A stretch of DNA of 56,763 nucleotides from Alphaproteobacteria bacterium. GTDB taxonomy: Bacteria > Pseudomonadota > Alphaproteobacteria > M2410. The position numbers were made by a program, and so were the translations under genes. Below, piece after piece: positions 50,670 to 56,440 of the stretch. The notes under the pieces are model-generated. The model did no database searches. It had not been told where the DNA came from and saw only the letters and a program-made list of their open reading frames with translations. Each line of letters opens with the position of its first letter. The stretch's first letter is position 1. Location of the stretch: the NCBI GenBank assembly GCA_030614785.1, contig JAUWTJ010000018.1, forward strand, positions 1-56,763. Direction: 5' to 3'.

Positions 50670-51971
50670 ATGAACACTCGGCCGGAAATTGACGCGGCAC
50701 TCGCAAGGAAAATTCAGGGGGCCGTCCGTGACGGCATGGCGGATCAGATCGCCTTTACCGAGGAGCTGGTGCGCAAGCCGTCGGTCCGCGGTCAGGAACA
50801 CACCGCGCAGGACTTCCTTTTTCAGGAACTCAAGGCGCGCGGTTATGCCATGGATCGCTGGGCGATAGACCCCGCCGAGATTGAAAACCATCCAGGGTTC
50901 TCACCGGTCGCGGTGCCCTATGACAATGCGATCAACGTTGTCGGCACGCACCGGCCGCGCGATGAGCAAGGGCGCTCGCTTATTCTCAACGGCCATGTGG
51001 ATGTGGTGCCGACCGGGCCGCTGGATATGTGGGAGCGCGCGCCGTTCGAACCGCACATTGAGGGCGACTGGCTCTATGGCCGCGGCAGCGCCGATATGAA
51101 AGCCGGGCTTGTCGCCAACATCTTTGCACTCGATGCGCTGAAGAGGCTCGGATACCAACCAGCGGCCACGGTTCATGTTCAATCTGTCACCGAAGAGGAA
51201 TGTACCGGCAATGGCGCACTGTCGGCACTGGCGCGCGGCTACAAGGCCGAGGCCGCGATAATCCCCGAGCCGATGGGCGAGGGTTTTGCCCGGGCCTCGG
51301 TTGGTGTCATCTGGTTCCGCGTTCATGTGAAGGGCCATCCGGTTCATGTGGCCGACGCGAGCACCGGAGAAAACGCCATCGATGCCGCGATCTTTTTGAT
51401 CGGTGAGTTGAAAACCTATGAAAAGCAGCGCAATGCACTGAAGAAGGATCATCCGCACTTTGCCGAACTGGAAAAGCCGATCAACGTCAATATTGGCAAG
51501 ATCGAAGGCGGCGACTGGGCTTCGTCGGTTCCGGCGTGGTGCAGCTTTGATGTCAGGACGGCGCTTTATCCCGGCGAGAATGCGAAAGAGGCCGCGCGCG
51601 AGATCGAAACCTTCCTGCGCGGTGCATCGGGCAAACATTCCTTCCTCGGCAACAACCCGCCCGAGATCGAATTCAACGGCTTCATGGCCGAAGGCTTTGA
51701 ACTTGAAGCGGGCAGCGATGCGGAAAAAACCCTCGCCGCAGCTCACACCACAGCGACCTCAAAAGAGCTGGAAAGCTTCACATCGCTGGCCTATCTCGAT
51801 GCGCGCGTCTTTGTGCTCTATGATGGCACACCGTGTCTCGTTTATGGTCCGGTCTCGAAGGGTATTCATGGATTCAATGAGGCTGTGAGCATTAAATCGA
51901 CAGAAAATGTCACCAATACGATCGCACTTTTTATCGCCCTGTGGTGCGGTCTTGAGCCGATTTCCGGGTGA
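50670..51971 (+). CDS. M20-family deacylase/peptidase (ArgE/DapE type)
   Basis: 433 residues. Metal and catalytic motifs are NGHVDVVPTGPLDMW, YGRGSADMKAG and VTEEECTGNGAL, with VKGHPVHVADASTGENAIDA in the dimerisation domain. It belongs to the ArgE/DapE/ACY1 group and probably removes an acyl or peptide group from an amino acid; it is unlikely to be the biosynthetic ArgE or DapE because it is longer and not with arg/dap genes. It carries no signal peptide. Confidence 0.92.
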   Translation: MNTRPEIDAALARKIQGAVRDGMADQIAFTEELVRKPSVRGQEHTAQDFLFQELKARGYAMDRWAIDPAEIENHPGFSPVAVPYDNAINVVGTHRPRDEQGRSLILNGHVDVVPTGPLDMWERAPFEPHIEGDWLYGRGSADMKAGLVANIFALDALKRLGYQPAATVHVQSVTEEECTGNGALSALARGYKAEAAIIPEPMGEGFARASVGVIWFRVHVKGHPVHVADASTGENAIDAAIFLIGELKTYEKQRNALKKDHPHFAELEKPINVNIGKIEGGDWASSVPAWCSFDVRTALYPGENAKEAAREIETFLRGASGKHSFLGNNPPEIEFNGFMAEGFELEAGSDAEKTLAAAHTTATSKELESFTSLAYLDARVFVLYDGTPCLVYGPVSKGIHGFNEAVSIKSTENVTNTIALFIALWCGLEPISG

Positions 51972-52120
51972 CGGATCGAATTTTAGGAAATTACCCTTCG
52001 AGATTTATGGGCCGGCTTCAGACCTTCTTAGGGCGCGGCTCGATAGTCTTGACCTCACGCAATGGACCCTGTGCCGGTCCTTTTATTCAAGGCGGCGTGG
52101 CAAGATAAGGAGACACTGAC

Positions 52121-52210
52121 ATGAGCCCTTCAATTTCTCGTTCGGCAACCCTCGTCCTGATCTTTTTCTTTGGCTCAGCTGTGCTCGTGAGTTCAGCAAT
52201 CGGCCTGTGA
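52121..52210 (+). CDS. 29-residue small membrane protein (candidate)
   Basis: A short ORF with a good ribosome-binding site: AAGGAG 8 nt before ATG 52121. The product is MSPSISRSATLVLIFFFG followed by SAVLVSSAIGL, one hydrophobic helix with an N-terminal Ser/Arg patch, much like other short single-pass membrane proteins. A 19-bp hairpin follows the stop (52263-52306), as expected for the end of a small transcript. It lies 149 bp after the M20 gene. No homologue comes to mind, so the function is unknown. The ribosome-binding site and hydrophobic product are observed; translation is inferred. Confidence 0.55.
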   Translation: MSPSISRSATLVLIFFFGSAVLVSSAIGL

Positions 52211-52262
52211 GCCTGCGGTTCTGAGTAGCCCCGCAACCTTTCGACACCCCCAGGGTTCCAAA

Positions 52263-52306
52263 CCGGGTCATGTCTGCTGATGCAGAAATCAGCAGGCATG
52301 GCCCGG
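52263..52306 (+). terminator. 19-bp hairpin between the small ORF and the PAS_5 gene
   Basis: CCGGGTCATGTCTGCTGAT pairs with ATCAGCAGGCATGGCCCGG around the loop GCAGAA. In plus-strand RNA all 19 positions pair (two as G-U); in minus-strand RNA those two would be A-C mismatches. There is no strong T tract, so it may be a terminator, an RNA stability element or part of a small RNA. It begins 52 bp past the 29-residue ORF and abuts the stop of the convergent PAS_5 gene. Confidence 0.7.
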
Positions 52307-52795
52307 CTACTGTTCGGCATAGTCGAACACCGAGAGCGTTCGGGTGACGTCACGGTCATTGGAAGACAAGGGTAGACACAATACCTCAATTACCCTGAAC
52401 TCGTGTCCGACATAAACACTCTTGATCGGACCAAGATGGACGGGCTTTTTGCTGTCGATGACCATCTTCAGTATGGCCAGTGTTCTTTCTCTGAAAGGGG
52501 TCTGCTTGATGGACCTGACCCTGTCGCCTTTCCGCAGGGCGGCTGTCTCGCCACCAAAGAAGTTGCCGTTGAAGACCACACTGTGGTCCGCGCCGCCGTC
52601 TACCGTATCAAATATATAGATCTTGCGCAGATGGGGTGCCAGTTTCAGCAGGTCCACACTGTCCGGATGTGGCATATTCCTCCCGCCCCGGAGTTCAGCC
52701 CAGTAGTCATAGACCTCGCGCAATCCCGCGTTCGTCAGATCTTTCGATTCTGGCGCCACAAGTATCGGAAAGTTCCGCTTTCTCGCCTTCCACAT
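52307..52795 (-). CDS. PAS_5-type (PF07310-like) PAS-domain protein
   Basis: 162 residues with the same architecture as the PAS_5 protein at 6473: LREVYDYWAELRGGRNMPHP, DSVDLLKLAPHLRKIYIFD, SVVFNGNFFGGETAALRKGDRV, and a C-terminal VIEVLCLPLSSNDRDVTRTL strand pair. The YW...RGG.xMP and 'LLKLAPHL' pattern is the family signature. It has no output domain. Its start is 225 bp from the divergent acyl-CoA carboxylase gene. Confidence 0.82.
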   Translation of the reverse strand: MWKARKRNFPILVAPESKDLTNAGLREVYDYWAELRGGRNMPHPDSVDLLKLAPHLRKIYIFDTVDGGADHSVVFNGNFFGGETAALRKGDRVRSIKQTPFRERTLAILKMVIDSKKPVHLGPIKSVYVGHEFRVIEVLCLPLSSNDRDVTRTLSVFDYAEQ

Positions 52796-53020
52796 CTCGA
52801 CTCCGAGCGCACTCCATCATTAGCCACGGAACAGGCGCAAGCACGCAGCAAGAGTATTCACGTAGCCCTGTCAATAGACAAGCCCCCAAAAACTCCGTCG
52901 AATATCAGTCGCACTATTGTTTTTGCCGTGGTTTTCAATACCCGCTCACTAATGCTAGTCTGGCCAAAAGACAATCAAGAAAGTCGGCGGAATTTTCCGG
53001 ACGGCTCTTCGGGAGGAAAT

Positions 53021-56000
53021 ATGACACTCAAGAACATCCTGGTCGCCAACAGGGGCGAGATTGCTGTGCGTATTATGCGGGCGGCGGCGGAACTGGGGAT
53101 CAAATCAACTGGCGTGCACGCCCAGGATGACGCCCTGTCGCTTCATACGAGGAAATGTGACCTCAGTGTCGGCCTGAACGGGCGCGGCCCGGCGGCTTAT
53201 CTGGACGGCGCATCGATTATTGCTGCGGCGCTGGAAGCGGGCTGTGATGCGGTCCACCCGGGATACGGCTTTCTCAGCGAAAACGCCGGGTTTGCCCGGG
53301 CTTGCCAAAAGGCAGGCCTCACCTTCATCGGGCCACAGCCCTCGGTGCTTGAACTGTTCGGCGACAAGGCGGCCGCCCGGCAACTTGCAGAGAAATGCAA
53401 CGTGCCGCTTTTGCCGGGCATCAATCACGCTGCCACCCTTGAAGAGGCACGTGGCTTCTTCGAGGGGCTTGGCGACGGGGAGGCCATGGTCATCAAGGCT
53501 ATCCACGGCGGCGGCGGGCGCGGCATGCGCATCGTTGCAAGCCTTGAAGAACTGGACGATGCCTATGAGCGCTGCCAATCGGAAGCCAGGCTGGCCTTTG
53601 GCAACGGCGATGTCTACGTGGAGCGGCGCATTACACGGGCGCGCCATATCGAAATCCAGATTGTCGGCGATGGCTCCGGTGATGTCATTGCCCTGGGTGA
53701 GCGCGAATGCTCCCTGCAACGGCGCCACCAGAAGCTGGTCGAGATCGCGCCCGCCCCGTTCCTGCCGGAAGCGCTGCGCCAACGACTAACTGCATCGGCG
53801 CTTGAGATGGCCAAAGCCATCAAATACGTCAGCCTGGGAACCTTCGAATTTCTTGTCGATGCTGAAGACCTGTCGGAGGAAAGCCCCTTTGCCTTTATTG
53901 AAGCCAATGCGCGCCTGCAGGTCGAGCATACCGTGACCGAGGAAGTCATGGGGGTGGATCTGGTCCAGACGCAGATCCTGATCGCCGGCGGGGCCGCTCT
54001 CGCTGACGTCGGGCTGAACAGTGACAAGCCACTCAGCCCGCGCGGCTTCGCCATCCAGACCCGGATCAACATGGAAGTCATGAAGGCTGATGGCACGACA
54101 AAGCCGACCGGCGGTGTGCTGACTACGTTCGAGCCCTCCAGCGGGCCCGGTATTCGTGTCGATACTTTTGGCTATGCCGGATATCAGACCAGCCCGAGCT
54201 ACGATTCGCTACTGGCCAAGCAGATTGTTCATTCACACAGCGCAGATTTTTCCGTCGCGCTTGCCAAAGCCTACCGCGCCTTGTGCGAATTTCGCATCGA
54301 AGGTCTTCAGACAAACCTCTCGTTTCTGCAAAACCTCTTGCAGCACGAGGCGCTGACAACGGGCGCGCTCTATACACGCTTTGTTGATGATCACGCAGCC
54401 GAGCTGGCGGAAGACGATACTGACCACGAACGGCTGTTCTTTTCGCAGGAGATGAAAGCGGCAGCGGGCGGTGAGAAACGCACGACGGGAGCCACGATCG
54501 ATGCGAGCGATCCCCTCGCCGTCCTTGCCCACGGCAAGGCAGAGGACGGCGCACCGGCGACTGTTCACGCTGCAGAACCCGTTTCATCCGTCGCCGCCGC
54601 GCGGGGGCCGGACGGATCTTTCCCGATTGAAGCGCCCATTCAGGGCACCATTGTCAGTGTCGATGTGGCGGAAGGTGACCTTGTGCAAAAAGGTGCCTCG
54701 CTCATCGTCATGGAAGCCATGAAGATGGAGCATGTTATTCATGCTCCTGAAAGCGGCTATGTCCGCTTGCTGGGCGTCGAGGCGGGTGACACGATCTTTG
54801 AAGGTCATCCGCTCATCTTTCTCGAACCAGCGGAGGGCGACAAGGAGACCGCGCATGCGGAAATAGACGTTGATCTTGATTTCGTTCGTCCGGATCTTCA
54901 GGACGTCATTGACCGCCACGCCTTTGGGCTCGACGAAAACAGACCCGAGGCGGTTGCCAAGCGCAAGAAAATCGGTCATCGCACCGCGCGGGCGAACATC
55001 ATGGACCTGTGCGACGAGGGCAGCTTTGCCGAATACGGATCGCTGGCGCTGGCGGCCCAACGCCGACGCCGGTCCATGGAGGACTTGATTAAAAATACGC
55101 CGGGAGACGGCATGGTCGCCGGTATCGGCAGCGTCAACGGCGACCTGTTCGATGACAAGGCGGCCCAGGTTGTCGCCATGTCCTATGACTACACGGTGCT
55201 TGCCGGAACGCAGGGCAAGAATAATCACACCAAGAAAGACCGCATGTTCGAAATCGCCGAGAAGCAGAAGCTGCCGGTTGTTTTCTTCACTGAGGGCGGG
55301 GGCGGCAGACCTGGCGATACAGACGGAACCGGCGTTGCCGGCCTTGATTGCCTCGCCTTCCACTACTTCGGACGCCTCTCCGGCCTGGTGCCTCTGGTCG
55401 GTGTCAATGCCGGGCGTTGTTTTGCCGGTAACGCCTCCCTGCTGGGCTGCTGCGATGTCATTATCGCGACGGAAGACTCCACCATTGGCATGGGCGGACC
55501 GGCGATGATCGAGGGCGGCAACCTGGGCATTTATCGTCCCGAGGAGGTTGGCCCGATGTCGGTCCAGGTCCCGAACGGTGTCGTCGACATCGCGGTCAAG
55601 GATGAAGAAGAAGCTGTGGTTGTGGCGAAGAAATATCTTTCCTACTTCCAGGGCACGACCCGCGACTATGCAGTCCATGACCAACGCAAGCTTCGGACCA
55701 TCATTCCAGAGAATCGCCTGCGCATTTATGACGTGCGCGAAGTTATTGAGACCATCTGCGACGTCGATTCGGTGCTTGAGATTCGCCGCGGATTTGGCCC
55801 GGGCATGGTCACCGCCCTTGGCCGCATCGAGGGGCGGCCGATGGGTGTTATCGCCAACAACCCGGAACATCTGGCAGGCGCGGTCACCTCTGACGGCGCG
55901 GACAAGGCGGCGCGTTTCATGCAGCTGTGCGACGCCTTTGATATTCCGATCCTGATGCTGTGCGACACGCCCGGCATCATGGTCGGGCCGGAGGCAGAAA

Positions 56001-56440
56001 AGACCGGGCTGGTGCGTCACGCCAATCGGCTGTTTGTCACCGGCGGCAGTCTCACGGTGCCGTTCTTCACCATCATCTTGCGCAAGGCCTACGGGCTGGG
56101 TGCCCAGGCCATGGCGGGGGGCAGTTTCCGCGCGCCGATCTTTTCCATTGCGTGGCCAACCGGCGAGGTCGGCGGCATGGGGCTCGAGGGTGCCGTGAAG
56201 CTTGGTTATCGCAACGAATTGGCGGCTATCGAAGATCCGGAGGAACGCAAGAAGACCTTCGACGATATGGTGGCCGCTTCCTATGAGCGCGGCAAGGCGA
56301 TCAATGCGGCCTCGCATCTGGAGTTTGACGATGTTATCGACCCGCATGACTCGCGCCACTGGATCCTCAGCGCCTTGAAATCCGCGCCGCCAATTCTACC
56401 GCGCGCCGGCAAGAAGCGGCCCATGGTAGATACATGGTGA
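53021..56440 (+). CDS. Single-chain acyl-CoA carboxylase (BC-BCCP-CT fusion)
   Basis: 1139 residues uniting three functions. Residues 1 to ~455 are biotin carboxylase (ILVANRGEIAVRIMRAA, HPGYGFLSENAGF, ATP-grasp loop HGGGGRGMRI, ERECSLQRRHQK, FIEANARLQVEHTVTEE). A biotinyl domain around residues 535-605 has EAMKMEH with the biotinylated Lys568. The rest is a carboxyltransferase with FFTEGGGGRPGDTDGTG, GGPAMIEGGNLG and AMAGGSFRAPIFSIAWPTGE. This layout matches single-chain acyl-CoA carboxylases such as the mycobacterial LCC type, which accept short to long acyl-CoAs. GGGAGGAAAT precedes ATG 53021; the frame is open to 52403 but that part is antisense to the PAS_5 gene. Substrate chain length is unknown. 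Confidence 0.93.
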   Translation: MTLKNILVANRGEIAVRIMRAAAELGIKSTGVHAQDDALSLHTRKCDLSVGLNGRGPAAYLDGASIIAAALEAGCDAVHPGYGFLSENAGFARACQKAGLTFIGPQPSVLELFGDKAAARQLAEKCNVPLLPGINHAATLEEARGFFEGLGDGEAMVIKAIHGGGGRGMRIVASLEELDDAYERCQSEARLAFGNGDVYVERRITRARHIEIQIVGDGSGDVIALGERECSLQRRHQKLVEIAPAPFLPEALRQRLTASALEMAKAIKYVSLGTFEFLVDAEDLSEESPFAFIEANARLQVEHTVTEEVMGVDLVQTQILIAGGAALADVGLNSDKPLSPRGFAIQTRINMEVMKADGTTKPTGGVLTTFEPSSGPGIRVDTFGYAGYQTSPSYDSLLAKQIVHSHSADFSVALAKAYRALCEFRIEGLQTNLSFLQNLLQHEALTTGALYTRFVDDHAAELAEDDTDHERLFFSQEMKAAAGGEKRTTGATIDASDPLAVLAHGKAEDGAPATVHAAEPVSSVAAARGPDGSFPIEAPIQGTIVSVDVAEGDLVQKGASLIVMEAMKMEHVIHAPESGYVRLLGVEAGDTIFEGHPLIFLEPAEGDKETAHAEIDVDLDFVRPDLQDVIDRHAFGLDENRPEAVAKRKKIGHRTARANIMDLCDEGSFAEYGSLALAAQRRRRSMEDLIKNTPGDGMVAGIGSVNGDLFDDKAAQVVAMSYDYTVLAGTQGKNNHTKKDRMFEIAEKQKLPVVFFTEGGGGRPGDTDGTGVAGLDCLAFHYFGRLSGLVPLVGVNAGRCFAGNASLLGCCDVIIATEDSTIGMGGPAMIEGGNLGIYRPEEVGPMSVQVPNGVVDIAVKDEEEAVVVAKKYLSYFQGTTRDYAVHDQRKLRTIIPENRLRIYDVREVIETICDVDSVLEIRRGFGPGMVTALGRIEGRPMGVIANNPEHLAGAVTSDGADKAARFMQLCDAFDIPILMLCDTPGIMVGPEAEKTGLVRHANRLFVTGGSLTVPFFTIILRKAYGLGAQAMAGGSFRAPIFSIAWPTGEVGGMGLEGAVKLGYRNELAAIEDPEERKKTFDDMVAASYERGKAINAASHLEFDDVIDPHDSRHWILSALKSAPPILPRAGKKRPMVDTW

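Follow-up and report, generated by a model that had tools for sequence, protein, structure and literature searches.

A gap of about 335-338 nt between a plus-strand gene of the M20 family and a convergent, minus-strand PAS_5 gene, in the 56,763-nt stretch of alphaproteobacterial DNA analyzed here in its entirety (the window), contains a short plus-strand ORF that we are somewhat inclined to regard as encoding a translated, lineage-restricted, single-span membrane protein. A real small gene at this position is plausible because the pairing of a Shine-Dalgarno (SD) sequence with a hydrophobic helix is rare by chance, and because the filter that detects this pairing otherwise returned, from the intergenic DNA sampled, only real genes. 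The ORF, seen in one genome only, consists of an ATG, 28 further codons and a TGA, and its 29-residue product, as read from the window sequence, is MSPSISRSATLVLIFFFGSAVLVSSAIGL. Coordinates of the ORF and of associated features are collected in Table 1.

Table 1. Positions and properties of the candidate small gene, its surroundings, and frames recovered elsewhere in the same genome by the small-ORF filter
Feature	Position	Strand	Properties
M20-family ArgE/DapE-like deacylase, upstream neighbor	50670-51971	+	433 aa
Weak terminator-like stem	52064-52090	+	5 pairs, then TTTTATT; -7.5 kcal/mol
Shine-Dalgarno match	52106-52112	+	TAAGGAG; 8 nt 5' of the ATG
Candidate small gene	52121-52210	+	29 aa; single transmembrane helix predicted at residues 9-29, with Arg7 on its N-terminal side
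Hairpin between small ORF and convergent PAS gene	52263-52306		19 pairs (17 Watson-Crick, 2 U-G), 6-nt loop
PAS_5-domain protein, convergent downstream neighbor	52307-52795	-	162 aa; PF07310, 3.5e-07
Flp/Fap pilin frame	L131 18416-19324		PF04964
Flp/Fap pilin frame	L132 4765-5019		PF04964

Inspection of the ORF confirmed the well-spaced AAGGAG and ATG of a preliminary description, which had also portrayed the product as a purely hydrophobic helix in 29 codons; that portrayal holds for residues 9-29, a single strongly hydrophobic stretch, and fails for residues 2-8, which are polar and include one Arg. On the Kyte-Doolittle scale the best 17 residues average 2.48 and the last 21 average 2.22. 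A start codon, an SD sequence and a stop codon bound a short helix-bearing frame, as in a small membrane protein, and the product is a small hydrophobic peptide with a predicted membrane helix, as are the toxins of type I toxin-antitoxin systems. The SD sequence is only partly unpaired (0.36), a point against the small gene. In a sample of 180 long ORFs from the source genome, only 13 have an SD match of at least 6 nt. Searched as TAAGGAG-N8-ATG with at most one mismatch, the signal has a single match in the window, the one preceding the small ORF; since 1.89 matches are expected by chance, the SD sequence alone is not significant.

The combination of SD sequence and helix is another matter. 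We estimated its chance frequency in 6 Mb of random sequence from each of two models of the genome's intergenic DNA (order-1 and order-3), scoring, on both strands, frames of 18-60 codons under a strict filter (SD of at least 6 nt, hydropathy of at least 2.2) and a loose one (SD of at least 5 nt, hydropathy of at least 1.8, any start), both with thresholds picked when the values of the small ORF were already known, and scaling rates to 490 kb, the estimated intergenic total of the source genome. With an ATG start, the strict filter is expected to return 0.16 frames per 490 kb (order-1 model), or 0.0001 per 338-nt gap; with any start the expectation is 0.16 per 490 kb under either model. Overall, the whole of the genome's intergenic DNA should contain some 0.1-0.2 such frames by chance. 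The loose filter is far more permissive (5.1-7.0 chance frames expected per 490 kb), and when applied to 33,743 nt of real gaps in a 308,608-base sample of the genome it returned three frames, against 0.35-0.48 expected after scaling: the small ORF and two Flp/Fap pilins, whose recovery shows that genuine small genes pass the filter. For this comparison the minimum length in the gene model was raised from 90 to 120 codons after a spurious 100-codon antisense frame had masked the small ORF.

These frequencies bear on the main rival explanation, that the gap is noncoding DNA in which a heptamer resembling an SD sequence happens to coincide with an ATG and with a stretch whose richness in T yields a hydrophobic translation. 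We consider this possible, if rather doubtful. It accords with the chance expectation of the SD sequence alone, with the five to seven frames per genome predicted under the loose filter, and with the choice of the ORF as the best-looking case out of the whole window; against it stand the low expectation for the strict combination and the identity, as real genes, of the other two frames passing the loose filter. Codon usage, a further point on which this explanation draws, gives a weak signal. Relative to base composition, the log-odds of the small ORF frame are +3.8 bits, of which the synonymous part is +2.7, compared with -34.7 and -1.5 for the other forward frames and -33.6, +2.0 and -6.8 for the reverse frames; the single positive antisense value counts against a coding interpretation, as does the terminator-like stem just upstream, which together with its T-run probably marks the end of the upstream M20 transcript. 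The total score falls at the 14th percentile when ranked among 28-codon pieces of the genome's genes and at the 3rd when ranked among 88 hydrophobic pieces, and its synonymous part at the 36th and 20th percentiles, respectively. Codon usage thus weakly favors the frame and cannot decide the matter.

Coincidence would also explain why conservation was not found in the class and phylum genomes searched. Queries with the peptide returned nothing besides itself in its own genome, no match at E<=0.01 in 397 other genomes of the phylum, and no match in plasmid and phage records; the peptide was likewise absent from three genomes of the same family. Among 384 other genomes of the class, a draw that overlaps in part with that of the phylum, no relative was found, and the sole match (E 0.018, in L032) lay antisense within a 161-codon frame and was dismissed as chance. 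The relatives drawn for comparison included no genome of the same genus. DNA of the gap matched the 384 class genomes merely in chance pieces of 22-34 nt, in five genomes. No family among Pfam, NCBIfam and PHROG profiles matched the peptide, although such profiles detect short peptides poorly, and the two longer antisense frames across the ORF also lacked family matches.

Examination of the corresponding locus in other genomes gave a similar picture. A search with the M20 protein yielded 80 named loci, to which loci from the other searches for relatives were added; 92 had a usable M20 match and 91 extended at least 60 nt past the M20 stop, three of these being the window itself and a few others being duplicates of one place. 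A matching frame within 500 nt past the M20 gene was absent from all 88 other loci; seven of them had hydrophobic frames of 18-60 codons that were unrelated to it, an SD sequence not being required. In the nearest relative (L035), a metagenome-assembled genome (MAG) labelled Cellvibrionales, whose M20 protein is 82% identical to the deacylase, the gene following M20 differs and gene order breaks at that point. The M20 gene itself is absent, at E<=1e-60, from the three genomes of the same family, a distribution that, taken with the match in the Cellvibrionales-labelled MAG, suggests either horizontal transfer or mislabelled bins. Relatives of the PAS protein at E<=1e-10 occur in only two of the 384 other class genomes, with 29-30% identity. 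Beyond the PAS gene, positions 53021-56440 (plus strand) encode an 1139-residue protein that joins biotin carboxylase, biotin carrier and carboxyltransferase domains, with 25 NCBIfam models among the matches listed, all below cut-offs.

Data from the literature suggest that genuinely translated frames of this length often lack relatives. Ribosome profiling of Sinorhizobium meliloti, as described in PMC10117765, identified 14 novel small proteins of fewer than 30 residues, four of which are conserved beyond the species; the small proteins described there (SEPs) were unannotated, some had fewer than 30 codons, some carried a predicted membrane helix, and those below 30 residues were mostly species-limited (PMC10117765). 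Because most of these 14 proteins are not conserved beyond the species, missing homologues do not exclude a real gene here. The small ORF resembles the S. meliloti SEPs in being unannotated, in having fewer than 30 codons and in its predicted membrane helix, but differs in that they are documented by footprints or peptides, whereas it is known from sequence alone.

The preliminary description had also counted a strong hairpin after the ORF as an argument for a gene. The hairpin is real and begins 52 nt 3' of the ORF's stop codon. With 19 pairs it is the longest stem that a simple scan for hairpins detected in the 308,608-base sample (33 hairpins listed with at least 14 pairs, the runner-up one pair shorter), and the 131-nt segment around it has a folding energy of -62.1 kcal/mol (z -5.2). 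It directly adjoins the PAS stop codon (52307-52309, minus strand), however, and is therefore poor evidence for the small gene, suiting the convergent gene at least as well. A role as a canonical terminator of either gene was rejected because no real U-tract follows the hairpin on either strand, and a role as a dispersed repeat was rejected because the hairpin occurs as a single copy in the genome. Because each of its two U-G pairs corresponds to an A-C mismatch on the minus strand, the stem is unbroken only in plus-strand RNA, a slight hint that the plus strand is the functional RNA; with two differences, chance would produce this in an estimated 1 in 4 cases. A more specific form of the coding interpretation, to which we give limited credence, would make the ORF a young, genus-specific small membrane protein, born in the convergent gap and made from a transcript of its own that ends at this hairpin.

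For two further explanations the only positive support is the shape of the peptide. The ORF could be what is left of a once longer protein, secreted or membrane-bound, that has lost all but its N-terminal signal sequence: residues 1-26 have the form of a signal peptide (polar n-region, hydrophobic core, an S-S-A resembling a cleavage site), the frame stops shortly afterward, and the ORF is isolated between unrelated genes. We judge this improbable, in view of the failure of the peptide and of the two antisense frames to match any family and of the gap to find homologues in the class genomes beyond the chance pieces noted. Still less probable is a type I membrane toxin restrained by an antisense RNA; the 29-residue peptide has the size and helix of such toxins, which are generally shorter than 60 residues, hydrophobic, endowed with a putative membrane helix and little alike in sequence (PMC8309996), and it resembles TisB, IbsC and ShoB in length and hydrophobicity, but it differs from them in that neither a signal of an antisense RNA nor repeat copies nor a C-terminal charge was detected. 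A sigma-70-like scan, limited to that one promoter type, found no site in 51800-53100 on either strand, and hence none antisense to the ORF, a result that also weighs against the coding interpretation; no Rfam family matched this interval at E<=1; and no second copy was found in the genome. Most type I toxins carry positive C-terminal charges, IbsC, ShoB and DinQ being exceptions (PMC8309996), and the peptide has none.

If the small ORF is transcribed and translated, as we infer together with the topology, partner and function of its product, the protein would sit in the inner membrane through one helix. The positive-inside rule, the basis for placing the Arg-bearing N-terminus in the cytoplasm, predicts that the polar N-terminus with Arg7 stays cytoplasmic, that the helix spans the membrane and that the C-terminus lies at the outer face. 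Judged from its anatomy, and since it has almost no soluble part, the protein would most likely act, if at all, by packing against a larger membrane protein. CydX, YnhF/CydH, KdpF and CcoQ are single-helix accessory subunits of about 30 residues or little more, conserved and mostly encoded beside their complex; the 29-residue peptide is like them in length and in its one helix, and unlike them in its soluble-enzyme neighbors and in that our searches found no homologue. For the suggestion that it regulates a membrane complex, size is the whole basis. The small ORF by itself opens no new mechanism and would otherwise represent an ordinary, common kind of small gene. If translated, it would add another unannotated single-helix protein of fewer than 30 residues, of the kind that gene finders skip, and may be a recently born gene.
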